Below, piece by piece: positions 27,057 through 64,000 of a stretch of 64,000 nucleotides of DNA. A program made the position numbers and the translations under genes. The stretch is from positions 266,001-330,000 of the forward strand of contig MCFG01000021.1 of the NCBI GenBank assembly GCA_002104895.1, written 5' to 3'. Origin of the DNA: Anaeromyces robustus (taxonomy: Eukaryota > Neocallimastigomycota > Neocallimastigomycetes > Neocallimastigales > Neocallimastigaceae). Below the pieces are notes generated by a model. It saw only the letters and a list, made by a program, of their open reading frames with translations, was not told the origin of the DNA and did no database searches. Positions within the stretch are counted from its first letter, which is position 1; each line of letters begins with the position of its first letter.

Positions 27057-28670
27057 ATGACTTTAGAAAACGTTAGTTGTATTTTAAACAATTACCCAGA
27101 TGGTATGGTTACTGTTGATAACATGAAAGTAGTTAAAAGTCCAGTTCCAGAATTAGGTGAAAATGATGTATTACTTAAGAACCTTTGTTGTTCTATTGAC
27201 CCATTCATGCGTGGTCGTATGAGAGAAAATGTTAAGTCTTATGTTCCTTCTTTTGAAAAGGGAAAGGTTATGCAAGTTTTTTCTGTTACTCAAGTTGAAA
27301 AAATTGGTTCTGCTGTTACTGATATTAATGTTGGTGATAAATATATGTGTTTCAATGGTATTGAAAAATACACCGTTCTTCCACAACAAGTTATTAAAGG
27401 TGACGGTAAACAATCTCTTGGTAGTTTCACCAAAATTGATCAAAGAAACCCAATTAAGGATTCCTTCTATCTCGGTTTATTCGGTAAATATAGAAAAATT
27501 ATAAGTTTTTTTTTTTTTTTTATTATTTATTTTTAAAAAGTATTTTTTTTTTTTAAATAAAAAATTAGTTTTAAATAATTGTAGAAATTGAAATTAGTAG
27601 TAAATAAAAAATGGGTTTTAAATAATTGTAGAAATTAAAATTAGTAGTAAATAAAAGTAAATAAAAAATAAGTTTTAAATATAGGTAGAAATTGAAATTA
27701 GTAAATAAAAGTAAATAAAAAATAAGTTTTAAATATAGGTAGAAATTGAAATTAGTAAATAAAAATAGGTATTAAATAATAATAAATAATTGAAATTAGT
27801 AGTAAATAAAAAATAGGTTTTAAATAATAATAAAAAATTGAAATTAGTAGTAAATAAATTGTAAAATAATAGTTGAAAAGTATTATATATAAATAATTGA
27901 TAAATAATTAAATTGAAGATATAAATAAAAGAACAATAAAATAAATATATATATATATATATTTAAATTTCATTTTAATAGTGAATTTAATTTAAGTTAA
28001 TAATATTAATATTATTTATTTATAATTTTATGGTATAATAGGTATGCCAGGTATGACTGCTTGGGCTTTCTTCAACAAGGTCGGTAAGCCAAAAGAAGGT
28101 GAAACCATCTTTATTACTGCTGCTACTGGTGCTGTTGGTCAAGTTGTTTGTCAACTTGCTAAACTTAAGGGTTTAAGAGTTGTTGCTTGTGCTTCATCTC
28201 CAGAAAAGATTGGTTTCTTAAAACAAGCTCTTAAGGTTGATGAAGCTTTTAGTTACCGTGACTTCCCAGACAAGAAATCTTTTACTGAACAATTACGTAA
28301 GGTTTGTCCAAATGGTATTGATATCTATTACGATAATGTTGGTGGATACATTCTTGATTCTGCTCTTGAAGTTATGAACATTCATGGTAGAGTTATTATG
28401 TGTGGTATGATCTCTCAATACAACCTTAAGGACAAATACCAATACACTCTTAGAGATATTACTTCCAGAAGACTTACTCTTCAAGGTTGTTTATTCAATG
28501 ATTTCTTCCCACAATGTATGGGTGAATTTATGCAAGATATGATTCCAAAGTTAGAAAAGGGACAAATTATTTACAAGGAAGATATTTATGAAGGTGTTGA
28601 AAAGGCACCAGAAGCCTTTATTGGTTTATTCAACAGTAATAACTTTGGTAAGGTTGTTATTGTTCCATAA
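27057..28670 (+). CDS. Zinc-free MDR-family NADPH oxidoreductase (prostaglandin/leukotriene reductase-like)
   Basis: Two exons (27057-27483, 28042-28670) join in phase to 351 residues, reading through the junction as LGLFG-MPGMTAWAFF. The family reduces alpha,beta-unsaturated ketones and aldehydes with NADPH. Seen: SIDPFMRGRM near residue 50, the nucleotide-binding loop AATGAVGQVVCQLAKLKG just after the intron, YYDNVGG, MCGMISQYN, and the C-terminal EDIYEGVEKAPEAFIGLF with a final GKVVIV. All are typical of LTB4 12-hydroxydehydrogenase / 2-alkenal reductase types. No zinc ligands are present. Codons are richer in G and C than the surroundings (many AAG, GTT, CTT), suggesting high expression. 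There is no targeting signal; probably cytosolic, with a detoxification or redox role inferred from the family. Confidence 0.93.
27555..27875. repeat. Degenerate minisatellite filling the oxidoreductase intron
   Basis: Within the 558-base intron a unit containing GAAATTGAAATTAGTA, AATAAAAA and GTTTTAAATA recurs about six times with spacings of roughly 40-70 bases. Copies differ by small indels. It lies entirely between donor and acceptor. Confidence 0.8.
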
Positions 28671-32983: not shown

Positions 32984-33055
32984 AGGGGCGTTCCGGATTT
33001 GAACCGAAGACCTATTGATCTGCAGTCAATTGCTCTACCGCTGAGCTAACACCCC
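32984..33055 (-). tRNA. tRNA-Cys (anticodon GCA)
   Basis: A 72-base intronless cloverleaf on the minus strand. The acceptor stem GGGGTGT pairs with ACGCCCC (one T-G wobble). The D arm is GCTC-AGCGGTA-GAGC. The anticodon stem ATTGA/TCAAT encloses the loop CTGCAGA with anticodon GCA. The T arm is CCGGA paired with TTCGG around TTCAAAT. Box A (TAGCTCAGCGG) and box B (GGTTCAAATCC) are canonical. The discriminator base is T, the U73 identity element known for tRNA-Cys. CCA is not encoded, as in eukaryotes. Confidence 0.96.
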
Positions 33056-38960: not shown

Positions 38961-40706
38961 ATGAATATAATTACATTTTTAACAACTATATTTATCTATG
39001 CTCAATTAATAATTTTAGCTGCTTCACAAAGCGGAATAGAGAGCGGAAAAGATTATAATATAGTATCAGTACTTAGTGGAAAATATGTAACAGCTGCCAG
39101 TAATGGTAATGTACAACAATATGAAAAACTTAATAATGACAAATCTCAAATATGGCGTTTAGAAAGTGCAGGTAATGGAAGATTTGCTATACTTCAAGGT
39201 AATATGGCTATGACTGTAGAAAATGGTAATAACAATAATGGAAATAATATTTATATGTCAGAATACAGAAAAACAACTGCTCAACACTTTTCAATTAATA
39301 GAGCTGATAATTCTTACTATATTGTTGCTCAATGTACAGTTAATGCTGCACTTGATGTATTTGATCAAAGTAAAGAAAATGGTGCTAATATTGATCAATG
39401 GGACTACTGGGGTGGAGATAATCAAAAATTCTATATTTTCCCAGCTGGACAAGATGGTCCTTCTAATGGTTCAACTAATGGTTCCAATGGAGCCTATCTT
39501 TTTGCCTTTTTCCAAGGTAACGCTCCTGAAAAAGAACAATTATCCTATGCTTTAAGTACAGATGGTTATCATTTTAATATTCTTAACAATGGAAATTCAA
39601 TATGGAAATCTAGTGTAGGTACAGGATGTTTACGTGATCCATTTATTCTTAAAGGTGAAGATGGTACTTACTTTTTATTAGCCACTGATATGAGATCTTA
39701 TAGTGGTTGGGATAGTAATCGTAATATTTTAACTGCTAGATCTACTGACTTAATTCATTGGACAAACGTTTCTCTTATTGAAGTTTGTAATAAATATCCT
39801 ATTTTCCAAAGAGGTGATCGTGCTTGGGCTCCACAAGCAATTTACGATCCAGAAAAACAAGCTTATATGATATACTTTGCTGTTAGAGTTCCAAGTAATG
39901 GTAACAAAACTATTATGTATTACGCTCATAGTAAGGATATGACTAGATTTGATACCACCCCACAACTTTTATTTGCTCCTAAGAATGGTAATGAAGCTAT
40001 TGATGCTGATATTATTTACCAAGGTGGTAGATATTATATGTATTATAAAGATGAAACAAGAAAAACTATTAATTTAGCTCTTGCTGAACATGCAAGTGGG
40101 CCTTACCAAGAAATTAAACAACTTTCTGATAATGGTATTGAAGTCGAAGGTTGTAATATTTATCCAGTTGTTGGTACTAATAAATGGCTTATGATGTCTG
40201 ATGCTTATGTTAATGGATATTTCGTATTACAAGAAACTACTGATTTAGTTAACTTTAGAACTCTTAATCGTAATACTTATGGTTTTAACTTTACTCCACG
40301 TCATGGTTATGTTATACCTGTTAGTCCTTCACAATATAATGCTCTTTTAAAAGCATATCCATCCAGAGGTATGTATACTATAAATGTTCCTACAACCACT
40401 ACTACAGTTAAAAAGACTACTACTACTACCGCTCCAGTTAATACTTCTGGAGCTGTTAATGAAATTCCTTACAGTTATCCATATTGTAAAACTACAAAAG
40501 ATGTAGCATTTGATGATGGTACATTACAATGGGGTGTTGAAAATGATAACTGGTGTATAATTAAAGGTCAATCAGCTCAAAAATGTAATTGTTGGGCACA
40601 AAAATTAGGATATCCTTGTTGTACAGAAAAGGTTATTTATTACTCTGATGGTGATGGTGATTGGGGATTTGAAAATAACCAATGGTGTGGTATAATGAAA
40701 TGCTAG
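38961..40706 (+). CDS. Dockerin-bearing GH43 glycoside hydrolase with ricin-type lectin domain
   Basis: A single exon of 581 residues. Residues 1-22 are a signal peptide (LTTIFIYAQLIILAASQS). Residues about 25-165 form a ricin B-like beta-trefoil carbohydrate-binding domain (YNIVSVLSGKYVTAA, FSINRADNSYYIVAQ). A GH43 five-blade propeller follows at about 178-455, with LRDPFIL (D226), the TDMRSY strand, WAPQAIYD and VEGCNIYPV (E396, likely acid). A Thr-rich linker (PTTTTTVKKTTTTTAP) leads to two CBM10-like fungal dockerins. The first is degenerate (LQWGVENDNWC); the second is complete (CNCWAQKLGYPCC ... DWGFENNQWCGI). The protein should dock on the fungal cellulosome and act on arabinan or arabinoxylan side chains; the exact specificity is not readable. 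I do not find the usual N-terminal catalytic base Asp at its expected place in blade 1. Being intronless with a bacterial-like core suggests horizontal origin followed by addition of fungal dockerins. Confidence 0.92.
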   Translation: MNIITFLTTIFIYAQLIILAASQSGIESGKDYNIVSVLSGKYVTAASNGNVQQYEKLNNDKSQIWRLESAGNGRFAILQGNMAMTVENGNNNNGNNIYMSEYRKTTAQHFSINRADNSYYIVAQCTVNAALDVFDQSKENGANIDQWDYWGGDNQKFYIFPAGQDGPSNGSTNGSNGAYLFAFFQGNAPEKEQLSYALSTDGYHFNILNNGNSIWKSSVGTGCLRDPFILKGEDGTYFLLATDMRSYSGWDSNRNILTARSTDLIHWTNVSLIEVCNKYPIFQRGDRAWAPQAIYDPEKQAYMIYFAVRVPSNGNKTIMYYAHSKDMTRFDTTPQLLFAPKNGNEAIDADIIYQGGRYYMYYKDETRKTINLALAEHASGPYQEIKQLSDNGIEVEGCNIYPVVGTNKWLMMSDAYVNGYFVLQETTDLVNFRTLNRNTYGFNFTPRHGYVIPVSPSQYNALLKAYPSRGMYTINVPTTTTTVKKTTTTTAPVNTSGAVNEIPYSYPYCKTTKDVAFDDGTLQWGVENDNWCIIKGQSAQKCNCWAQKLGYPCCTEKVIYYSDGDGDWGFENNQWCGIMKC

Positions 40707-48711: not shown

Positions 48712-50412
48712 TTAAATAAATAAAATTATACTAATAATTAAACTAATAATTAGGGTTTGCAAAGCCAAATGATGTAATTTTAATCCGAAAATAAAACTAA
48801 TAGCATCATCTTTTTCACTATTTTTTTCATCATTTTCAATTGCACTCGTATCAAAAGATTCTACAAAGAACAATGGAGTACTAGAAAGAATAACATTTTT
48901 CTTTTTACCAATATATTTTACCTCTTGTTTATAATCTATTTGTTCAGCATAAAAATCAAAAGTTAATTCTTTTTGTACTGTTGCTTCTGTTTCTTCATCA
49001 AAACATTCAACCCATGCAGAATAAACTATATCATGCCATTCTGTTTCATTTTCTTGTGGGAATTTTGGAATTAACACTGTACCTGTTAATCCTGAACCTA
49101 ATTGATCTCTCCATTTTCTTGTTTTTTCTACATCAACTTTCATTTTTGATAAATTAAATTTTTTTAATACTAATCTAGCTTTAGTGGATGGTTTCATTAA
49201 ATCCATAGCATTTTCCTTAGTTTTTGAACCTATACCAGGTAAATAATCAGCATTACCTTCAGAATTACCATCAGCTGTAACAAAATAATGAATTTGAGTA
49301 ATATTATATTCTAAGGCGTAAATTGGTGTCTTTAAATTAAAATTTCTTCTAATTAAATCACTACCAAATTCACCTGTAGAATCAACACCACTTTCAGAAC
49401 ATATATATATTTTTTCTGGATATTTTTTACCATCAAATCCATATTTTTTAATAAGATATTCATGATTCTTTTTCATGGTCATCATATTCATTGAGTAACT
49501 ATCACTAGCATATTTATTATATACTTTACCTGTTTGTACATCAGTAGTACCATATCTTGGATATTTATGGAAAGATTGACAATCAAAATAAGCACCACCT
49601 TGAGCAGGATATTCAGAAGTAATAGTACCACCATTTGGATTATCCGTATATCTTAAAATTGCATCTAAAAAAGAATCATAACCTAAACCTCCTGTAGCTA
49701 CATAAGCTTCTGGATGATATTTTTTAACAACTTCATAAGTAACTCGAAGTATTCGAATATATGAAAATATATCACCATTCCAGTGTGATAAAATTGTTGG
49801 ATCTGGTGGTTCATTATACCATGAATCAATTTGATTATAACTTCTTGTATAATCTGGTTCATTCCATACTTCATATATTAAGACATAAGGTTTATAATTT
49901 TGAACAACATTATATACATAATATGCCCAATAATTATTTTCATTTACAGTACCATCTTCATTCCAAATCTTCTCATATAGATTTTTAGGTGGAGAATTCT
50001 CAGCATTATTTGGGTTAGTGGAATGAGGATCATCTGGCTTTGCTAAATAAGCAATGAAATCATAAATACCTAATTCATTATTTGCTTTACAATCCCATGT
50101 TTCAATATTATAACCCCACCTAACTAAAAAATCTTCTGGAAGTTTTTTCCTTTGACCATCCAAACCTGCCATTGCAGCTAAATAAGAATTATTAGCATCA
50201 TCCCAATAACCACCACCAATATATCCTAAACAATTACCTGTTCTATATTTTAAATTTGATGGATCTGGTACGGATTTGTATGCACCAATATTTTCATAAT
50301 TTTCTCTTTTTTCATATTGATGTTCATTTAATTCTGATTCTTTTTCAGCCTTTATTGTATAATACAATACTGAAAACAAAAAAAATAATATAGTTTTATT
50401 CATCTGAATCAA
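48712..50412 (-). CDS. Secreted, GPI-anchored clan GH-A glycoside hydrolase (GH39/GH5-like)
   Basis: A single exon of 566 residues. The N terminus is a signal peptide (TILFFLFSVLYYTIKA); the Met at position 4 is an alternative start. A beta/alpha-barrel follows. The acid/base is E185 in IYEVWNEPDYT, the Asn-Glu pair that defines clan GH-A. The probable nucleophile is E340 in IYICSESGVDS, 155 residues later. YFDCQSFHKYP supplies the usual His/Tyr strand between them. The C-terminal part has a beta-rich domain and ends in a hydrophobic segment (LIISLIISIILFI) after a charged spacer, as for a GPI signal. It would act at the cell surface on plant polysaccharide or on the fungal wall; the spacing looks closer to GH39 xylosidase-like than to GH5 cellulases, but the family is uncertain. 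No dockerin, so it is not cellulosomal. It lies tail-to-tail with the receptor gene. Confidence 0.8.
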   Translation of the reverse strand: MIQMNKTILFFLFSVLYYTIKAEKESELNEHQYEKRENYENIGAYKSVPDPSNLKYRTGNCLGYIGGGYWDDANNSYLAAMAGLDGQRKKLPEDFLVRWGYNIETWDCKANNELGIYDFIAYLAKPDDPHSTNPNNAENSPPKNLYEKIWNEDGTVNENNYWAYYVYNVVQNYKPYVLIYEVWNEPDYTRSYNQIDSWYNEPPDPTILSHWNGDIFSYIRILRVTYEVVKKYHPEAYVATGGLGYDSFLDAILRYTDNPNGGTITSEYPAQGGAYFDCQSFHKYPRYGTTDVQTGKVYNKYASDSYSMNMMTMKKNHEYLIKKYGFDGKKYPEKIYICSESGVDSTGEFGSDLIRRNFNLKTPIYALEYNITQIHYFVTADGNSEGNADYLPGIGSKTKENAMDLMKPSTKARLVLKKFNLSKMKVDVEKTRKWRDQLGSGLTGTVLIPKFPQENETEWHDIVYSAWVECFDEETEATVQKELTFDFYAEQIDYKQEVKYIGKKKNVILSSTPLFFVESFDTSAIENDEKNSEKDDAISFIFGLKLHHLALQTLIISLIISIILFI

Positions 50413-51328
50413 TACCCAATAAAAATATTATTTTAAAAAAAAAATAATAATTTAAATCAAAAATATTAATTATTTAAAAATACATCAATACTTATTTTAA
50501 TAAGCTTTATTAATCAAAACTTTTTTTATTAACTATAATTAATTATATTAACTTTAAAAAGCCAATTTTAGCATTAGTTTTAAAAAAAAAAAATTTTTTT
50601 TTTTGATAATTATTATTATTTTATTAATTCTTCATACTTAAATAATTTGTTGATATTACAAAATTTATTACAAAAAAATAATTGGTAAAATATATATATA
50701 GATAATAATTATAAAAAAAAAACTTTCAAATATATCTTTATATATATCTTTATTTATAAAAAAAGAAGAAAATACAATACTTTTATTAATAGTTAAAAAT
50801 GAAAAAAAATAAAACAAAAGTATTTTAATTATGATTAATAAATATATTTTAGGATATATATCTTAATTTCACTTAAAAAAAATTATATAAATATTTTTTA
50901 AAATTTTATCTTTTAAATAATATTTATTAGAAAAGAGAGAGAGAATAAATAATTATTTAATAAATAAAATTTATTTTATAATATATATATATTTCATTTC
51001 TAAATCAAATAATTATAAATTATTAAAATGTTATTAATCACTTTTAATTGTTTATTTTTTATAAATAATAGTAGTATATTGTTTTAAATTATGCTTCATT
51101 TCTTTATTTCTTTTTCTTTTCCTTTCTATTTTCTTTTTTTTGTTGTTGTTGTTATATTTTTTTGAAATAATAGAATTTTAAAAGAGGATAGATCCTTATT
51201 AATTATTATTATTATTATTATTATTATTGTTATTGTTGTTGTCACTATTATTGTTATTGTTAGTAGTGGCGTTACTATTTATTCTACATATTATTCATAT
51301 TAATAAGTCACTCACAAAATTTATAATT
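50413..51328. other. Intergenic region between glycosidase start and polyketide synthase end
   Basis: A/T-rich DNA with an imperfect (ATT)n/(GTT)n array at about 51200-51280 in the probable 3' UTR of the large gene. No coding signal. Confidence 0.55.
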
Positions 51329-54300
51329 TTATATTCTTATGGCATTATTTAATTTTTCTATATCCTCTGTTGTTAAAAAATTATCTAGTATATTATTTGA
51401 ATTGTTATCATCAGATGATAAATATTTTATTATTTTTTTAGCTTGAGCAAGTGCAGCTTTTCTCATATTATCAATATTTGAAACAATATCATTAATATAT
51501 TTTGCTTTATAGGAATCAATGGCACTTATGTTTTCAGTTTCTAATTGTTTTATAAGACTAATATATTTGGTATCATCTTTAGCTTTAACCAATTCTTTCA
51601 TCCAATTAATATTAATTGGATTATTTTTTGAGTAGAAGAAAGAACGACGTGTAATAATTTTCCAATTAGATAAAAGAGCGATTAATATAGCAAGATCAGT
51701 TATTTCACCATTGAGACAACAAATTATTGGTACATTAATATTACTTATTTTAAGACAATTAAAATAAATTTTGTATACTTCTTTAAGTTTAGATTTAGAT
51801 GGTTTTTCTTTTGAAAGTTGTTCTTTTAATGATGGTTCTAAACCTTTAGAGAAGTTTTCCTCATATTCTATAATAAGTACCTTCATTTGTTGAAGTTGTG
51901 AAAGATTTGAAATGGCTTGTCCTAATTCTTCTGCATATTCTAATGTCATATAATGATTTTTCATAGTGAGATTATAAATACCGTTTTCTAAATGTTTATA
52001 AAATACATGCTTATTATCATTGATAGACTTTTTAATTTTATGATCCATATTTATATCATTATTATTATTCTTATTATTATTATTCTTTTTTCCATTAATA
52101 CTACCACCATATTTTAATGTTTTTTCACTGTCAATACTTTCACCAATACTACTATCACCTGTAGAACTTTCCCCATTATTACTATCTCCTACACTACTAT
52201 CACCTACACTACTATCCCCAGCAGTACTTTCTCCACTATTAATAGGTGAATAAGAACGATGATTTGAGGATAATGATGAATAATCACCATATACATACCT
52301 ATGAAGAATATAGTTTTCTTTATCTTCTAGTATTTTATGATGTTTTAGAGGTGGGAATTCTGGCTTAATAAGAAGAGGTATTGTAATTTTACCCTTATTA
52401 AGTTTATACATTAATACATTAGTAACCGGTGCAATATGTTTAGAATATTCATTATTAATTTGGAATCTAGATATCAGTTGAATACATGGGTCTACATCTT
52501 CTCTAAGGAAAAAGTCTAAAATATCAGATAAATCTTCTGAATCGAGTAATTCAATAACTTCGGAAAATTCACGTGATTGATTACCTTGTTTCCATTGAGA
52601 AAGATAGCCAGATCCCTTCATTGCTGGTAAAGAGAAACACTGACTTGAAAGACCTTTTTTTCTTCTATAATAAGTAAGATTATTAAGGAAGGAATTAGCA
52701 GCACCATAAGCAATTTGACCAGGATTACCAAAAAGATCAAGAACAGAAGAGAATAGAACAAAAGTGGAAAGAGGGAAACCAGATTGACTTATTTTATGAA
52801 GGTTTAATGCACCTCTAGCTTTTGGTTCAAATGAAGATATAAAGTTAGAAAAGGAAGAATCACGAATAAGTTTTGGACCAAATTTATTAGCAAAATGGAA
52901 GACACCATCAATAACTGGGGTGGTTTCTTTGAACAATTTTTCTACTTCATTATAATTACAAATATTACATTTAGTTATAGTAACATGAACGCCCTTTTGA
53001 CGTAAAGCATTAACAATAGGATGATTATATTTATTTTCTGGATTAGATGAAGTAGTTAATATAATATGACGAGCTCCACGAAGTTGCATCCAAAGACTAA
53101 CTCTTAATCCAACACCACCAAATGCACCTGTAACTAAATATGATTTATCTTCCTTAAATATACGACTAGGTAAACAATTTTGAATTTCTTCTTCTTCTTC
53201 TTCTTCCTTTTCTTTTTCTTTAACCATTGATAAACATGATTTACCTTGAAGTCGTCCACTTAGAATTTCTATTGAAGCATTACTTATTTTAGATAGAGGA
53301 TAGGTCTTAAGATCAATAATATTTACTGAATAATTTGAAATCATATCAATTGCTTGTCTAACAAATGGTAATATTTGTTGAGTTGTTAGTTTACTCATTT
53401 GAACAATTTTATGAGTAGTTACTTTTTTGGCACTGTGACTGAGATTTCCTACCTTAATATATTCATCATCAACAGGAGTAACTGATCTTAAACATCTTTC
53501 AAGAAGGACTTCTTTTTCTTTTTCAAGTTTAATATTGGCATCAATAATATAATTCACACCTTGACCATCTTTAGACAATTCTTTAACGTTACGAATATAT
53601 TCCGATTCATTTTTGGTAACTATCATATTTTGACGAAGGTTCATAAAAATAGGGTTAGTGCTTTTACTATATTTCATAGTGGGATCATCGATAATGACAG
53701 AAATATTTTTTTGTTGAGCAATAACAATGAGAGCTTGCATTAAATCACTGGCCATTGTAGAAAGAATAACAGATTCATTAGCTTGAATATTATTTAAAAG
53801 ATAAAGAGCCATAGTATAAGCATATACTGAAGAAATTAAATTATGTTGAGCTAAGATATTATTTTTATCAATATGGAAGAGTAAATCTTGATGAATTTTA
53901 ACATATGTAGATGGCACATGATTTGATTGAAGATTAAGACCAAAAATGAAATCGCCACGCTTAAAGTTTTTAACTTTAGATCCTACTTGAACTATAGTAC
54001 CAACACATTCTACTACATTAGAGTTCTTCATACTATCCACTAAATCTGGGAAAGAATTTTGAAGTACATCATTATTTTGAAGAGAAATCATTTTAACCTT
54101 CACAACAACATAATCACTTTCATCTTTGTTATAATTGTTACTTTCTTCTCCATTTCTATTGTTTTTTATCGCACTAGAAGTGGAATAAATATCTGGGATA
54201 CCATAAGATTTTCTAAAAACTATTTTATTAATATTACCAAAACGTTTAGATTCAGAATCGAAATTTTTGGATTGAATTTGAGGAATAGAATCTTTACTTA

Positions 54301-57300
54301 TTAATCTATTAACCAGAATTGTTTTATTATCATCAACAAAAATATCAGGCTCTTCTATAGAAAGACAACCAGAGAATAAACCATATGCAAATCCTTCTAT
54401 TTTATTGGCTTGAATAGAGTACATATGAGAACTCCTTGATTCAGAACGAGCAGCTCTTAACATTCCTGGAATACCTTGAGAAGCAGTAAATAAGTTTTCA
54501 AGATTTTCATCATTCTTTGAATGATCTAATCTTATATTACCAATAATGAAATTAAGGCCATTAGATACATAATATTGAATCTTTACAAAAGCTGTTTCAA
54601 TTGAAGAATCATCTAGAAGACATAAATCAATTAATACAACATTACTTTTATTAATTGTTTGATCCATAATCATTGTTTGAAGATTTTGATTATGAGTATT
54701 TGAATCATTTAATAAAGTGATTTTCATATTCATATTAGAAAGAGTGGGTATAATATTCAATTGTACTTGTGCTTCCTGTGATTTTGTACATAATACAATA
54801 ACGTGAGAAGTAGGAATTGGGAAACTTTTTTGTGGAATGGTGGGATTAATTTTTTCATAATTAAGAACATTATACCAATCTAATGGACGAATTTGTTTTA
54901 ATTTTCTAATCAAAAATTCCATAGTTTTAATTTTGACTAATGGCTGACCAGATTCATCGTAAATAAATAAATCAATAATAACACTATTTAAATCTTGATA
55001 TAATAATTGACTTACACATGTTATAAAATTAGATTTGAAGTAACCTCCATTAGCCATTTCAAATCTCTTTATTTTGTAAGGAAGAATTTGACGATTTCCA
55101 CAACCAAGACCTAAACAAATAATAGAATGGAAACAATTATCAAGAACAGCTGGATGACAAATCATTTTTTCATGGTCTTTTGTGATTTTAATCTTAGCAT
55201 AAGAATACTTTTTACCAGAGCGACCTGATTGAATTAGTTGGAATTCAGGACCATAATGAAGTTGAATAGCCTCAGTACGTTGATATATATAATCTTTATG
55301 AATACCTTCACCTCCATTAACTGTTGAACAACTTTTAATAATTTCAGAAAGATTTGGGAAATTAGTAATTTCTTTTTGAGAAGAAGCATCTACATAAATA
55401 CCTTTACTTATAACAGATCCATCTTGGTGTTTTAATGTAAACTGATGATCTGTATCTTCATAAAGCTTCATAGGAATTGGACCTTTACTATTTAATTGAT
55501 CTTCTGCTTTATTTTGGAAAGATGTTAATCCTATAAATTCTAAATTATTTAAAGCTACAATATTATTAACTTTATTATTATTATTATCATGAATTAATCC
55601 CCTACTTCTCATATAACCATATAATGCACGACTAACACTACCAGCAGCTGGGAAAACAATTTTATTGTTGACTTGATGATCTACTAAATATTTATTATTT
55701 TCATAAATCCAGAAAGCGTCATCTTCACTAGCATAAGATTGGCTATTTGATTTAGATTCAATATAATTGGTTTTTATGTTAGATGAAGATGTTTTACTTT
55801 CATATTTCTGATCTAAATGATCAATAGAACCACTTGCATTTTCATTTCTTAATTTATAAGGATTATTAGAACCACTTGCATTTTCATTTCTTAATTTATA
55901 AGGATCATTAGAATAAATATCTGAAGTAGATTGAACAGAAGTAGGTTTAAATATTTTTTCATTTACAATTGTATTCGAACTTGAACTTGAAATTGAACTT
56001 GGGTTTATTGTTTTTTTAATAGTACTCTCCTGTTTTTGATTTAATATTATAGTTGCTGCTTTTTTCATAGTTTTTTCATCTTTTTGAATTTTTTCTTCTT
56101 TATTTTTTCTTAAAATAGGTACTGAAACTGATTTAGATAGAGTTTTTTCACCTTTTTTCATTTGGGCCAATTTTTCTAAATATCCTACATCCTTCGTCTT
56201 AATACCAACGTTAACATCTCCTGGTAAACCATTTCTCATTGCTTTGAAAAGTTTTCTCAAGTATTTATGATTCCAACAACGAGTTGGAAGATCATAATGA
56301 ATACTATATAGTTGCTTGAAACTATTATCACCACCTTTAACATCTACGTAAGTTTCCCAAAGATGACCAAAATTAAGTTTAGGAGTTACATTATCACCAT
56401 GAAGAAGAGAAATAAAATGAATTAATCTCTTAAAACTAATATTATAATTTGCTTGATTAGTAGAAGAATAATGTTTATGATCATATTTCTCCTCATAGGT
56501 AAATATATTATATATTCTTTTTTTTTCACAGAATGCTTGAGAGGCTTGCTTAATGACAGGATGATCAAAACCTAAACCAATCTCTAAAATATTTTTACCA
56601 TCTGTTGGTAAGGAATTAATTGTGTGTGATAATACTTGAGCATAAAGTACTGGACATCTCATATTCATCCACCAATATTGACCATCTAAAACTCCTGTAT
56701 AAGGTTTTCCTTCTTTGTTGAACTTTACAGTAGAAAACATAGATATATCAGAATCATGAGTTTTAATATCCTTTAAGCTCTCCATTAATTCCTTTTTTAT
56801 AGATTCATTAATCATTTTAGAATGAATGCCAAAAATATCATTATATGTACCTAGAGTTTTAATTTCAACATCCTTTGCCATGGTTACAATTTTGTTCAAG
56901 ATTTCATATTCACCAGAAATAGAACAAGATACTGGACTTTGAATACCTGATATAGATATACCTTCTTTTTCCTTTTCTGTTAACTTAGAAAGAATAAATT
57001 GATTTACTTTACCAACAGAAGAACCTAACATAATAGAATATTGTTTTTGATTTTGCTTATTATAATTACTACTTAAGACTCTACCATAATGATAAAGAAT
57101 CTTAATAGCATCTTTTAAACTTATTTTTTCAGCAGCATAAGCAGCAGCAATTTCACCAGAACCATAACCAATAACAGAAGTTGGATTAACACCATAATAT
57201 TTTAAAAGAGCCGACAAAGATAATTGAATTACACCATTCAACATAATTATCACAGAAGGATCTTTAATAAGATCATGACGGAAGTTTTTCTTCTTCTCTG

Positions 57301-60300
57301 GATCTTTTTCTTTATCAAGTTTAAATAAATCATAATCTTGAAGAAGAGAACATTGATTATTACTTAAAACTTGATAAACTTTGTCACAATAATCAATACA
57401 ATTAGCAAAATAGACATTATTATTGTAAAGATCAATGCATAGGTCATTATAAGTACTATTTCTAAGAAAAGAGGAAGCAGTGGAGAAAGTAAGTGGTTCA
57501 TCAAAAGCCATAGTAAGACCCTTTTTACGATCACTTGTAGTTTCAATATACATCATATGTTCATTAGCTTTATAACCATTTTCAATAGTATTTTCATTTT
57601 CATTTATAAAGGAACGAATAGTTTGATAAAATTCTTCTGAATTTTTAACAAAAATAAAGAAACGATGTGATAAAACTCTACGAGTAGTTGAATTAAGATA
57701 AAGCATAGGTAATAATTCCTTTTCTGGAATATTTAGCCATTGATTTAAAGTTTCTTTTAAGAGTCTTAAATTAGAAGCAGAAAAGAACCCTACATAAGGG
57801 CATGGTATTCTCTCACCTAATTTATTTCTTTTAATTAAAACAGATATATTATTTTTATCAAATTGGGGTTCCTCTTCTAAAATAACATTAGCATTAGCAC
57901 CACCAAAACCAAAAGAATTTATTGCTACACGATGACGACCTTTACCGGAAAGAGGTTCCATTTTATCAGCTATACGAATACCTAATTTATCACAATCAAT
58001 ACCTGGATTCAAAATATCAAAAGCAGTTTGAGGTACAATAGTTTGTTTATGAAGAATTAAAGCACCTTTAATTAATCCAACAACACCACTTAAATATTCA
58101 CCATGGCCTACATTACCTTTAACCGAACCTACAGGAATAGGTGGATTTCCATTATTTTTATTTACCTTACCATAGGCTTCACCAATGGATCTTGCTTCAA
58201 TAGGATCACCAACTGCTGTTCCTGTACCATGAGCTTCAACAAAATCAATAGTACAAGGATCAATATGACCTTTATCATATACACGTTTCATTAATTGAGA
58301 TTGAGCCTTTGATGAAGGTGTAGTTAATGATGCAGTTTTTCCATCTTCATTACAAGCTGTACTTAAAATTGTAGCATAAATTTTATTATTATCTCTAAGA
58401 GCTTTTTCATAAGGCTTTAATAAAACCATAGCAGCTCCTTCTAAACGTGCATATCCATCAGCAGCAGCATCAAATGGTCGACAAGCCCCTTTTTTGGATA
58501 CTACACGAAGTTGTGAATAAGCAACACCATTAGAAGGAGTTTGGAAAAAGTTTGTACCTGCTACAATAGCCATTTCACAATCACCAACAGCTAAAGAATT
58601 ACAGGCTATAGATAAAGCAGTCATAGAAGAAGAGCAAGCTGTATTAGTAGAAAGAGAAGGACCATGAAGATCAAATAAATAGGATACACGATTAGCATGA
58701 ATAGAAGGTTCAATACCACTATAAGTATATTTTGTAATTTTTTCTGGAACTGAATAAACATAACTACCATAATCCATACCGGAAGTACCAACAAATACAC
58801 CTGTATTGCTACCTTTAAAATCATCTACATCTATGTTAGCATCTTCAATAGTCTCTACAGTTAATTCACATAACCATCTTTGTTCTGGAGTAGCGTCTAA
58901 AGCTTCATTTTGAGAAATACCAAAGAATTTATTATCAAAATCAAAAGCATTTTCAATAAAACCTCCATGAATAGTTTGAATAGTACCAGGTTTTTCAACT
59001 TTACTATACCATTCATCACGATCCCAACGATCTTCAGGAATAAGACCTGTAATAACTTTTTTTTCTGTCATTATCTTCCAGAAATCATCTTTATTACATA
59101 TTTCACCTGGTAAACGAATACCAGTTCCAATGATTGCAAATTTTGGATAAGCTTTAGGATAATGAACATTAGGATCACTATCAGTAATATGTTCCTTTAA
59201 TGGTGAAACTTTTTCTTGTGTTGGATCAGCCATATTTTCAATTTGAATTTCTTTTGGAATTGTAGTCAAATGAACTAATTTTGGATAATAATTAATTAAT
59301 ATAGATTGTAAAATAGTAAAAGCTTCATCAAGAAGTCGTATATTCATTGATCTTAAAATATTAAATTTTAAAATATCATAATTCATGTTGAATGCCTTTT
59401 TTACATAATAACATTCTTAATATTTATTAAATATAAAAACACAAAGAAATATAAAAATATAGATAGATATATATAGATGATATTATTAATATACTTATTC
59501 ATATGGAATTAAAAATGAATTTATATACATATATATATATATATATATAATTAATATATTAAAATATATAAATAGAAATTACTAATTTTATTTTTAAATA
59601 AATGTTGAGCTAAAGCTTCAATATCTTCATTTTCAATAATAATTGATGTAATAGCAGAAGAACTTTCAATAAATTTTAATCCTATCGTTTGACATTTCTT
59701 TTTCCAATATTTAATATTCTTTATTAATTGAGAATGAATGGAAGAATCATCAACATTTTCATCATTTTTAATATCATCATTTATATTATTTATATTTTTA
59801 AATTTTGTAGTATCATTTAAAATAATATCCAAAGAAGAATTTGCTACAGCAGCAGACAAAGTACTTATTGGAGAATAAAATGATTCATCAAAAAGATCAT
59901 TCTGTTGATGAGATAAGATGGATTCGATTTTATTATTAAATATATAAAATTGACCACTACTACATAATACTTTATCCATTGAACAAAAAATAATATCAAC
60001 TTCTTGTTGACATTGATGATAATCAAATGAACCTAAACCCTTTTTTCCTATAACACCTAAAGCATTAGATTCATCCAAAATTGTAATACAACCATATTTT
60101 TTTGATAAATTTAATAACTCTGGAAGGGAACATATATCACCTATTTATTAATTAAGTTATTTTTGTTTGTTTGTTTGTTTGTATGTTTTTATGTTCACGT
60201 TTATTATATTTTAAGTAAAAGTAATAATAAAAATAAAATGAAAAAAAAAGTTATAATAATATAAAAATATATTTATTTTTATTTGAATTATATATATAAA

Positions 60301-61038
60301 TTATATAAATATAATATAATTTAATTTAATATAAGGTTTTCAAATATATACAATAATAAATATATATTTTAAAAAATGTGAAATTTATATTATATATATA
60401 TATTTATATATTTAAATTCGTTGATTAATCAAACTTTTTTGATATTAATATATATTAATATTTTAAATAAAAAATTTACCTTGTAATTCAAAAACACCTT
60501 CTGTAATAATAAATTTCTTACTATCTGGATCGTCTAATATAATAGATTCTAACTTTTCAGCAAGATCTGATACATCATTATGAGAATAAATAATAATATG
60601 ATCATTTTTGATAACAGATGAATTTAATATTTGTTTAAAAGAATTATTGATATGTTCATCAATAAAAACATAATCTTCAGAACATATCAAATTATATAAT
60701 AAGATATCACGCACATCATTTTGATAAGTTTGTATTCTATGAGAAGAACCATATATTTTTTCTAATGATTGATTTAATTCAATATGATAAGGAGTAATAT
60801 ATCCGTAGGAACCTAAACCATATTCTTTTATAGCTTTTTCAGCAGCTAATTTTACTTTTAATTCCTTATTTAAAGAAAGATATGAAGTTGATTTAAAATT
60901 TATATATTTATTTGAACTCTTAATAGATGAAATGGAAGATTTATCATGTATATGAATTGAACCAGTTGAATCTACTAAAGTTACAACTGAATTATTATAT
61001 TTCATTGATAAAATATTATTTTCTTCACTGACTACCAT
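51329..61038 (-). CDS. Giant polyketide synthase-like protein: AOS-KS-AT-DH-ER-KR-crotonase
   Basis: Three exons (61038-60480, 60140-59583, 59415-51329) join in continuous phase to 3067 residues. Residues 1-425 form a PLP-dependent alpha-oxoamine synthase-like domain: YGLGSYGYI, DESNALGVIGKKGLG (D209) and SMDKVL (K243). Its last helices are read only after the second intron (NILRSMNIRLLDEAFTIL). KS at about 463-890 has C633 in NTACSSS, H768 in EAHGTGT and H810. AT follows with GYGSGE at 1122-1127 in place of GHSxGE. DH has H1619 in LVDHQVNNKIVFP and a LDNCFHS partner. A core region and an MDR-type ER follow at about 2140-2400, without the Gly-rich loop. KR at about 2460-2650 has TGAFGGVG, FSSV and AYGAAN. 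A Ser/Gly repeat linker leads to a crotonase-like domain (about 2840-3000). No carrier-protein DSL motif is found. The product is unknown; an iterative or trans-carrier system is inferred. Confidence 0.85.
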
Positions 61039-61265: not shown

Positions 61266-62378
61266 TTTGTTTTTTTTATATTTCGTTTTTTGTTTTTTGT
61301 TTTTTGTTTTTTGTAAAACGCGAAAAAAAGTTTATTTATTTAGCGAATGCATATGTATTTGTAAATAAATAGGAAAAATATTAGAAATAAGTATATTCTT
61401 AATAATTCTTTTTAATTAACTTTGCTTTTTAAAAATTTTATATATAGATATATTTATAAAAAAAAAAAAAAACTATTTTTATGTTCATATATCATATAAT
61501 AATATAGAAACAATATACAATTAAAAAGATAAAATATTATAATATAAAAAATATTGCTTAAAATAATAAATAAATACGTACTTTTTATATTTATTTCAAA
61601 AATATATATATATTGTTAAAAAACAATTTTCCTGTTTTATTTATTCTCTTTTTTTTTTTTTTTTTGTTTTTTTTTTTCTTTTCAAATAACAATTTTAAAT
61701 ATTTTTTATATTAAAAATTTTGTTTAAAAAATTTTTTAAAAAAAAAAACAAATTTTTTTTTGTATACTTAAAATTTATATTAAAAATTTTTAATTTATAA
61801 TTTTTTTTTTTTTTCACAAATTGTTGAATAATTAATTGCAGTTTTATCCTTCTAAAATATTTTTTTATAAAATATGTAATACTTTCGTGTTTTTTAACTT
61901 TATATATTAATATCTATTGAAAATAATAATTTTTTTTATTTTTTGTGAAAATAAATAATCTATAAACACAGTAATATACTAAAATTATAAAAATATAAAA
62001 CTCTCTCCCTTTTTTTATATTTTTATTAATTCTTTTAGTCAAAATAAATTTAAATATAAATATTTAATTATTATTTTAAATTAAATATTATAATGTCCCA
62101 AAATAAATTAAAAAGTAATATAACCATTCATTCACAGGATATATTTAATAATTCTTATTAAAATTATATTCTATTTGTCTTTTCCTTTTAAATAAAAATA
62201 AAATAAAAAAATATTATTTTAATATATATAATAAATAGAAAAAAGTTAGTCTTAGATTATAATATTCTTGATAAAATTTTATATTAATTAATATCATTAT
62301 CATTATTATCATTATTAGTAGTAGTATAAGTATTATTTTATATATCTTAATATCATTATTATCATTATTTTTATTATA

Positions 62379-62414
<36 letters not shown>

Positions 62415-63512
62415 AATATTATTATATTATTTAATATTATTATTGTTAATACACTATCTTATTTAATATCTATTGTTATAATTAATATTAGTATTGATTA
62501 TTGATATTAATATTATTATAAAATAAAAAATTAATAAAAATGAGTAAATAATTAGAATTTAAATGTACAATTTTTACTATTATTCTTATTATTATTATCA
62601 TTATTATTATTATTATTATAATTATATAAACAAGAAGTAACATAAATTATTTTTGAAATAGCAATCTTACTATTAAAGTAATAAAAGAAATTTTTATGAA
62701 ATTACTACTATTTTTTTTTATAATTATTATTATTGAAATCTCAATTTAAAAATTTAAATGAAATTAATCATTTAAACAATAAATTTTTCATTATAAATAT
62801 GAAAAATCATCTTAAATACTAATATTAATGTTATTAAATAAAAACACATGAATATATTTGTTTTGTTTTGTTTTTTTTGTTTTGTATTTTCCTTTTTTTT
62901 TTTTTTTCTTTTCTTTTTTTTTTTTTTTTTTTTTTGACTATCCAATATTACTATAATTTTTCTTCTAATTAATTGATAAAAAAAATAATAATTTAATATT
63001 TACTTTATGATAATATATGTTGTCAAAATATATTTTTCATTAAAAAAAATTAAAATAAAAAAAGAAATAAAGAAAAAAAAAAGAAATGAAATGAAATAAT
63101 ATAAAAATATTATTGATATAATTGAGAAGATTTAAAAACAGTTTTAAAGTATCTGACGAATTAATAAATTTGAATTTTTAATTTGAATTTTTTTTTTTTT
63201 TTTTTTTTAATTAAAAATATAATGATATAAAAAATTTTTATAATATATAAACTTTTAATATATAAATAAATTGTACAATATATAAAATATATTATAATAT
63301 ATATATATTAAATATTAGAATATTTTTTAAAAATAATAAATTTTAATTATAATTAAATATTAAACATAATATTGAAAATAAGTTTAATAAAATAAAAAAT
63401 ATTAAACTCAAAATAAATAATTATTATTATTATTATTAATACATATGATTTTTTAGAAGTACTGTGATTATTAAAATTATATCAAAATTACATAAGACAT
63501 ATATACATACAT

Positions 63513-63547
<35 letters not shown>

Positions 63548-64000
63548 TTTTATTTATTTATTCATTATGCATATTTTATTTTTAGAAGTCTTTGACTATG
63601 TTAAAATGATTTTTTTATATATAAAAAAGTTTTTTTTTTTGTTTAATTAGATTTTCAATTATATTATCATTCTTTTAATAAATAAATTAAGAAATAAATA
63701 ATTAAAATATATGTTATATATAATATACTTTTTTATTTGAATCTACTATGTGATTGTAAATACTATATATTAAAATATTCCATAGTACAAACAAGTAAAT
63801 TTTATATATATATATAACTATAAAAAATAATTTGAATAAAAAATTTTCTTTATATAATATTATAATATTCACAATAATGAAAAATATTATCCTTTATGGT
63901 TATATATTATAAAATATATAAGTTCATATACTTTTTATTTTTACTTTTATTTTTATTTTTACAATTATTTTTATTTTTATTTTTATTTTTATTTTTATTT
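61039..64000. other. Upstream region of the polyketide synthase-like gene, to the window edge
   Basis: A strong poly(T) block (about 61183-61264, poly(A) on the coding strand) sits 145-225 bases above the start codon and may act as a nucleosome-poor promoter element. The rest is homopolymer, ATT arrays near 62360-62412, (TTTA)n near 63510-63550 and (TTTTTA)n at the right edge. No protein-like frame or RNA gene is visible; the short Phe-rich frames over the poly(T) block are artefacts. Confidence 0.5.

Follow-up and report, generated by a model that had tools for sequence, protein, structure and literature searches.

We analysed a stretch of 64,000 nucleotides from the gut fungus Anaeromyces robustus (contig MCFG01000021.1, positions 266,001 to 330,000; hereafter, the window), in which a single gene, at positions 51329 to 61038 of the minus strand, encodes a polyketide synthase (PKS)-like protein of 3067 amino acids. 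In this protein, an alpha-oxoamine synthase (AOS) domain precedes the ketosynthase (KS), acyltransferase (AT), dehydratase (DH), enoylreductase (ER) and ketoreductase (KR) domains, and a crotonase (ECH) domain closes the chain. The protein belongs to a family of three types, which we denote A, B and C, and represents type C.

Gene structure and domain composition

The initial annotation of the locus, made from the sequence alone, joined two small upstream exons to an open frame of 8 kb. A search for GT/AG sites near both junctions yields this join in frame (Table 1), and an interrupting stop codon, which the annotation had named as evidence against the join, is absent, the only stop being the terminal one. 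However, 14 combinations of GT/AG choices near the two junctions leave the frame open, so that the open frame alone is weak evidence for the gene model. We chose the model on four other grounds. The Piromyces finnis protein BCR36DRAFT_414372 (P0001, 2971 amino acids; 63% identity over 100% of the window-protein query) is annotated as a single fused protein, and its sequence runs on across both junctions (by sequence comparison, with the first junction aligned). Intron 1 lies at the same codon and in the same phase, (Q/E)G|D(I/V)C, in a type-A paralog on another A. robustus contig, C177, for which a five-exon model built by the same method equals the public A. robustus protein BCR32DRAFT_248107 (P0121) letter for letter. 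The metagenomic open reading frame (ORF) calls P0002 and P0003 carry unrelated residues immediately before the conserved start of exon 3, as expected if intron 2 is common to them and the window gene. Finally, the AOS domain is incomplete without exon 3, the sole source of its end, in agreement with the initial annotation. The homologs retrieved with the window protein do not include an A. robustus annotation of this gene. The G+C content is 0.27-0.29 across window positions 52001-60000, 0.195 at 50001-52000, where the end of the gene still lies, and 0.10 at 62001-64000.

Table 1. Exons, introns and domains of the window gene, and related loci on other contigs (C177, C35, C224) of A. robustus
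Feature	Location	Strand	Remarks
Exon 1	60480..61038	-	start codon and N-terminal part of AOS domain; start similar to that of P0001
Intron 1	60141..60479	-	GT...AG; position and phase as in the type-A paralog on C177
Exon 2	59583..60140	-	AOS core, with DESN and lysine motif SMDKVLCSSGQF
Intron 2	59416..59582	-	GT...AG
Exon 3	51329..59415	-	last AOS part, KS, AT, DH, ER, KR, crotonase; includes stop
AOS domain	59273..60921	-	residues 40-420, interrupted by both introns; Lys present, Arg region and two His altered; Pfam
KS domain	57863..59146	-	residues 463-890; Cys-His-His intact
AT domain	56513..57532	-	residues 1001-1340; GHSxG replaced by GYGSG, serine lost; second catalytic His and AT fold kept
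DH domain	54893..55732	-	residues 1601-1880; His and Asp kept
ER region	53213..54145	-	residues 2130-2440; GGVG nucleotide motif lost; Pfam below cut-off, placed by alignment
KR domain	52463..53170	-	residues 2455-2690; TGAFGGVG, Ser, Tyr and Asn kept
Degenerate crotonase (ECH)	51332..52018	-	residues 2839-3067; Pfam below cut-off, hhalign, weak fold model
Type A synthase	C177:54912-42791		AOS-KS-AT-DH-ER-KR, catalytic residues kept, then seven tandem, partly near-identical ACPs
Type B synthase, C-terminal part	C35:3-3416		ECH-ECH-HMG-CoA synthase; truncated at the contig start
LCB2-like serine palmitoyltransferase exons	C224:143067-145254		motif GTFTKSFGAAGGY

Above its cut-offs, Pfam detects an aminotransferase I/II domain in the first 441 residues (E 1.4e-11) and the KS, AT, PS-DH and KR domains in exon 3, with ADH_N and ECH_1 (E 0.0036; 17.1 bits against a cut-off of 27) below them. 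The N-terminal domain displays fold type I homology over its length, the best solved relatives being 3a2b and 8guh, that is, serine palmitoyltransferase (SPT), at E 4.9e-29, with LCB1 at 1.1e-20; the AOS of type A scores best against KBL (3tqx) and SPT (8guh). The lysine of SMDKVLCSSG in the window AOS aligns with that of type A and of 3a2b. We considered and rejected the possibility that this domain is an LCB1-like one devoid of the lysine: the lysine aligns, the best-scoring relative is a stand-alone SPT, and an LCB2-like gene exists elsewhere in the genome (Table 1), recognized by a motif that we take to be typical of LCB2. The AT, despite the loss of its serine, is predicted to fold (AlphaFold2 pLDDT 83.5), and, among its 239 structural matches at E<=0.001, each of the best 50 is a PKS structure containing an AT.

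The C-terminal domain, annotated initially as crotonase-like, is indeed related to this superfamily: in a profile comparison, it matches the second of the two ECH domains of type B (hhalign Prob 98.9, E 1.3e-17). The first ECH, also considered as its source, was rejected (Prob 0.2). With tblastn, window-protein residues 2627-3056 align with positions 3-1283 of C35 (25% identity, E 1e-17), a piece that also spans the first-ECH region and whose score may be carried by the KR end with which it starts. Structure prediction gives a weak model (pLDDT 62.6, TM 0.31-0.47); of its 211 matches (E<=0.001), the best 50 all belong, judging from their titles or general knowledge, to the crotonase superfamily, and the matches listed include the ECH2 of CurF (2q35, 2q34, 2q2x). 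A search with the profile of this domain against PDB sequences returned nothing at E<=1. In a comparison by eye at the presumed oxyanion-hole glycines, type C of the window reads NGEITDLAILIALLSNW where the first ECH of type B reads KGVVFGGGMIFPCMSD. A scan of the whole A. robustus genome with Pfam ECH_1 (E<=0.001) yields just two ECH domains, both on C35. The crotonase of type C is a degenerate relative of the second type-B ECH, so that type C has arisen either from a B-like form or from an ancestor common to both.

Three types of AOS-first synthase

Family members that can be assigned to a species all come from gut fungi, namely, A. robustus, P. finnis, Neocallimastix californiae and Neocallimastix 'constans'; the remainder are metagenomic proteins, putatively attributed to this group by similarity. 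Type A, represented by the paralog on C177 and by N. californiae LY90DRAFT_512986 (P0122), is complete: as in type C, the N-terminal AOS is followed by KS-AT-DH-ER-KR, but the AOS, AT and ER residues are kept, seven or ten (in N. californiae) acyl carrier protein (ACP) motifs are present, and there is no ECH match. Both type-A proteins are named only as hypothetical or uncharacterized. Type B, exemplified by P. finnis BCR36DRAFT_316229 (P0007), resembles type C in its AOS-KS-AT-DH-ER-KR order, in the absence of a detectable ACP, in the loss of the AT serine and in its homologous second ECH; by contrast, its ER motif is intact, it ends with two ECH domains and an HMG-CoA synthase (HMGS), and its AOS lysine is replaced by tyrosine, so that both its AT and its AOS are damaged. 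When the type-B end was searched against proteins of comparable overall length, four were retrieved, all of type B. The A. robustus genome encodes types A and C and the C-terminal part of type B, and a type-B KS was not found among the A. robustus KS loci examined. The KS of the window protein is 88-92% identical to those of the other four type-C proteins and 57% identical to that of type A, its KR is 79-86% identical to those of other type-C proteins, and in three metagenomic orthologs the type-C frames extend over 2557-2851 amino acids. The C-terminus of type C is conserved.

We built a KS tree from 66 sequences, namely, 13 from types A, B and C, 7 from other A. robustus KS loci and 46 sampled hits labelled bacterial in this analysis. 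In this tree, which was rooted at the midpoint and drew a long-branch warning from the tool, each type forms a single group, the three types are united with maximal support (100/100) on a long stem (1.46), and types B and C are sisters (97/94). Two divergent KS matches in A. robustus, C427:2305-2907 and C34:39744-40373, lie within open frames of 4215 and 3843 amino acids.

The AOS leads the chain in types A, B and C, as the initial annotation had noted for the window protein. A search with the type-A AOS retrieved 16 proteins: three of type A, two of type B, nine other KS-bearing proteins, P0124, an adenylation/ACP protein in which two AOS regions occur, and P0133 from Amoebophrya. In all nine KS-bearing proteins outside types A and B, the AOS lies downstream of the KS. 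This search relied on shared 5-residue words and similar total lengths, so that an AOS-first protein elsewhere could escape it. The unusual domain order perceived in the initial annotation looks new, and both of its ends, the leading AOS and the closing crotonase, are real.

The fate of the catalytic residues, whose roles are those established for their families, was followed in an alignment of 11 proteins, five of type C, four of type B (P0005-P0008) and two of type A; the metagenomic ORF calls P0002-P0004 do not include the AOS exons and were excluded from the AOS counts. The Cys-His-His of KS, the His and Asp of DH and the Ser-Tyr-Asn of KR are kept in all 11. The GHSxG serine of AT persists in both type-A proteins, in one of the four type-B proteins (P0008, GYSTG) and in none of type C, and the second AT histidine in 2/2, 1/4 (P0006) and 5/5, respectively; given that P0008 has no second histidine, the two residues occur together in no aligned protein of type B or C. 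The GGVG motif of ER is present in types A (2/2) and B (4/4) and absent from type C (0/5). The AOS lysine is found in both type-A proteins and in the two type-C proteins that include the AOS exons, with tyrosine in its place in all four of type B. Of the two histidines with known roles in AOS enzymes, that of DExH is kept in type A and in 4/4 of type B and lost in 2/2 of type C, where the DECH of type A becomes DESN; the stacking histidine is kept in type A and replaced by lysine in 4/4 of type B and by asparagine in 2/2 of type C (NHTT of type A becoming INNS or LNTS).

No carrier domain was found in types B and C. A PP-binding domain is missing from the window protein (Pfam at E<=1), and PF00550 is missing from the precomputed Pfam lists of the other four type-C and the four aligned type-B proteins, as well as from our scans of P0001 and P0007. 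The G-x-D-S motif does not occur in the window protein, in the four type-B proteins or in three other type-C proteins; the single match in P0001 falls inside the AT region and is due to chance. The motif occurs 7 times in type A of A. robustus, where 7 PP-binding stretches are recognized, and 10 times in that of N. californiae.

Divergence of each domain relative to that of the KS was estimated within pairs of proteins, using the one type-A pair, three of the six type-B pairs and three of the 10 type-C pairs (one pair for the type-C AOS). For types A, B and C, respectively, the ratios are 1.34 (0.75-2.45), 3.64, 2.77 and 4.37, and 3.10 (2.34-4.16) for AOS; 2.68 (1.62-4.80), 3.83, 3.89 and 5.67, and 3.62, 4.00 and 4.73 for AT; 2.10, 1.72, 1.61 and 2.69, and 2.51, 2.90 and 3.65 for DH; 1.74 (0.99-3.11), 1.75, 1.28 and 1.68, and 3.28 (2.49-4.36), 4.07 and 4.79 for ER; and 2.06, 1.73, 1.24 and 2.16, and 1.50, 2.16 and 2.54 for KR. 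In these point values, faster divergence tends to track the loss of residues in most cases, and the KR of type C does not seem to diverge faster.

A proposed partner subunit acting in trans

Because in type C the AT serine is lost and no carrier was found, and yet the residues for condensation and ketoreduction are kept, we propose, with moderate confidence, that it is an ACP-less KS-(DH)-KR partner subunit that acts in trans on the acyl-ACPs of type A. Under this scenario, type A would load, extend, reduce and carry the chains, and the KS, KR and, probably, DH of type C would act on chains that the AT of type A has loaded and its ACPs carry. The intact AOS of type A, with its lysine, both histidines and Arg region, would then release the chain by condensation with serine, alanine or glycine, yielding an amino ketone, perhaps a sphingoid-like one, and type B would introduce a beta-branch. 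The damaged AOS, AT and ER of type C would stay as dimer-forming or scaffold parts. The domains kept in type C pair in dimers in their relatives, and eukaryotic SPT, in which a non-catalytic subunit is retained, provides an analogy for the damaged ones. SPTs that prefer acyl-ACP are known, according to the accessible part of PMC9386255, and so is a PKS that together with an AOS produces sphinganines, as described in passages of PMC12134224.

Several observations weigh against this proposal. Types A, B and C reside on separate contigs. P. finnis type A is not among the 16 proteins of the AOS search, and neither type B nor type C of N. californiae emerged from the homolog, AOS and type-B-end searches, so that co-occurrence of types A and C is demonstrated only in A. 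robustus. A free-standing ACP and AT could serve type C instead. Given that type C keeps the AOS lysine (2/2) and the second AT histidine (5/5), remnant functions of these domains are possible, and type B is not uniform, inasmuch as P0008 retains the AT serine. As for the divergence ratios, the bootstrap intervals of types A and C overlap for AT (1.6-4.8 and 2.8-7.0) and ER (1.0-3.1 and 2.5-7.0) and, slightly, for AOS (0.75-2.45 and 2.34-4.16), and the DH of type C also diverges fast (2.5-3.65) although its residues are kept.

The strongest competing explanation, which we regard as unlikely but worth serious attention, is that type C is a pseudo-synthase without any catalytic role of its own, which would serve type A or B as a scaffold or regulator and conserve its KS only as a dimer interface. 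The loss of key residues from AOS, AT and ER and the decay of the crotonase agree with this possibility, and eukaryotic SPT as a rule contains a pseudo-subunit. The catalytic residues of KS, KR and DH, however, are kept in all five type-C proteins, and the KR, which is not known as the main dimer interface, shows no higher divergence relative to the KS than in type A, with overlapping intervals.

A more elaborate form of the partnership, rather improbable in its entirety, would unite all three types in one heteromeric iterative synthase that arose by triplication of an AOS-PKS, with the AOS and KS interfaces pairing the catalytic, ACP-bearing subunit with pseudo-subunits. Here, type B would add a beta-branch through its HMGS and type C would contribute extra KS-KR steps, and the product, a sphingoid-like amino ketone with a beta-branch, would be synthesized without oxygen.

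The initial annotation went further and saw in the leading AOS and the closing crotonase a new type of assembly line. For the window protein itself, this view is not supported: no ACP was found, the AT serine and the GGVG of ER are lost in 5/5 and both AOS histidines in 2/2 type-C proteins, and the crotonase is decayed. Hence, it is very doubtful that type C is an autonomous line fed by a stand-alone ACP and AT, notwithstanding the genuine domain order and the retention of the AOS lysine and the second AT histidine. The same genome does encode such an assembly line, in the form of the type-A paralog on C177. It is even harder to accept that type C is a paralog in the course of being lost: the domain-wise decay of AOS, AT, ER and ECH is what a pseudogene in the making would display, but the A. 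robustus gene maintains a frame of 2685 codons without a stop, the P. finnis ortholog is full length, and the long metagenomic frames, the KS and KR identities and the conserved C-terminus all speak for maintenance. Scarcely credible, finally, is the notion that the AOS exons are a separate gene joined by an erroneous model, for which one can adduce the multiple GT/AG choices that keep the frame open, given the annotated fusion in P. finnis, the intron position common to the window gene and type A, the incompleteness of the AOS without exon 3, and the fusion of types A and B in the same domain order.

Relation to known systems and neighbouring features

Fungal highly reducing iterative type I PKS share the KS-AT-DH-ER-KR order with the window protein, which lacks their integral ACP and GHSxG AT. 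Trans-AT PKS have modules without an AT; in the window protein, the AT is present and predicted to fold, though its serine is lost. Fum1-type PKS carry their own ACP, unlike type C. In polyunsaturated fatty acid (PUFA) synthase (Pfa) complexes, tandem ACPs reside on one subunit and the partners are ACP-less, with another domain order and no AOS; the distribution of ACPs among types A, B and C would fit such an arrangement, if the three types are, as we suppose, partners. The LCB1 and LCB2 subunits of eukaryotic SPT are paralogous AOS proteins, one without catalytic residues, and are not fused to a PKS. The loss of the lysine expected of an LCB1-like partner is seen in type B (Tyr in 4/4) and not in type C (Lys in 2/2). 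HMGS beta-branching cassettes combine, at the domain level, the same HMGS and two ECH as type B, whereas type C retains only a relic of ECH2. The best sequence match of the first ECH of type B is isohexenylglutaconyl-CoA hydratase (4zu2, E 7.7e-19), with PksH (3hp0) at E 4.9e-7. Known HMGS cassettes consist of separate bacterial proteins or modules, and in type B the cassette is fused to one fungal megasynthase.

In the fumonisin systems of the Fum1 type, a reducing PKS chain is released by an AOS that is a separate protein, as stated in the accessible passages of PMC4936691. Likewise, SgaA/SgaB of Pseudomonas fluorescens MYb115 (PMC12134224, in part) combine an iterative type I PKS with an AOS that has SPT activity and produce sphinganines, but the system is bacterial and its AOS is on a separate protein. 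Pyridoxal phosphate (PLP)-dependent domains inside assembly lines are covered by PMC3870968, the available passages of which include no AOS-first case. Swift et al. 2021 (PMC8106346, as far as accessible) described 23 gut-fungal PKS genes in six families, which are transcribed and may include genes of types A, B and C; the accessible main text contains neither 'aminotransferase' nor 'crotonase' and none of the numbers 414372, 316229, 248107 and 512986. Among the entries listed in our literature search, we found no description of an AOS-first or HMGS-fused gut-fungal synthase. If correct, our proposal would reveal a multi-subunit PKS of gut fungi with the carriers on one subunit, carrier-less sisters and a PLP condensing domain in front, one sister having a whole beta-branching line fused to its end. 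Such a system would allow the partnership of pseudo-enzymes within megasynthases to be tested and would point to amino-ketone or sphingoid-like natural products of a hitherto unknown class in a phylum whose polyketides, judging from the accessible part of PMC8106346, are hardly characterised.

Elsewhere in the window, the next long ORF to the synthase (48712-50403, minus strand) shows, on visual inspection, what seems to be a signal peptide as well as a hydrophobic C-terminus, and has no Pfam match. Positions 38961-40706 encode a protein with GH43, ricin-type lectin and CBM10 domains, the latter presumably dockerin-like in gut fungi. An ORF of 586 residues at 56-1816 is of low complexity, with a long asparagine run, Glu/Lys-rich repeats and no Pfam match. 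At 27057-28670, the halves of a zinc-type alcohol dehydrogenase occupy two ORFs, probably split by an intron, and at 32984-33055 ARAGORN predicts a tRNA-Cys (GCA), with an Rfam tRNA at the same place.

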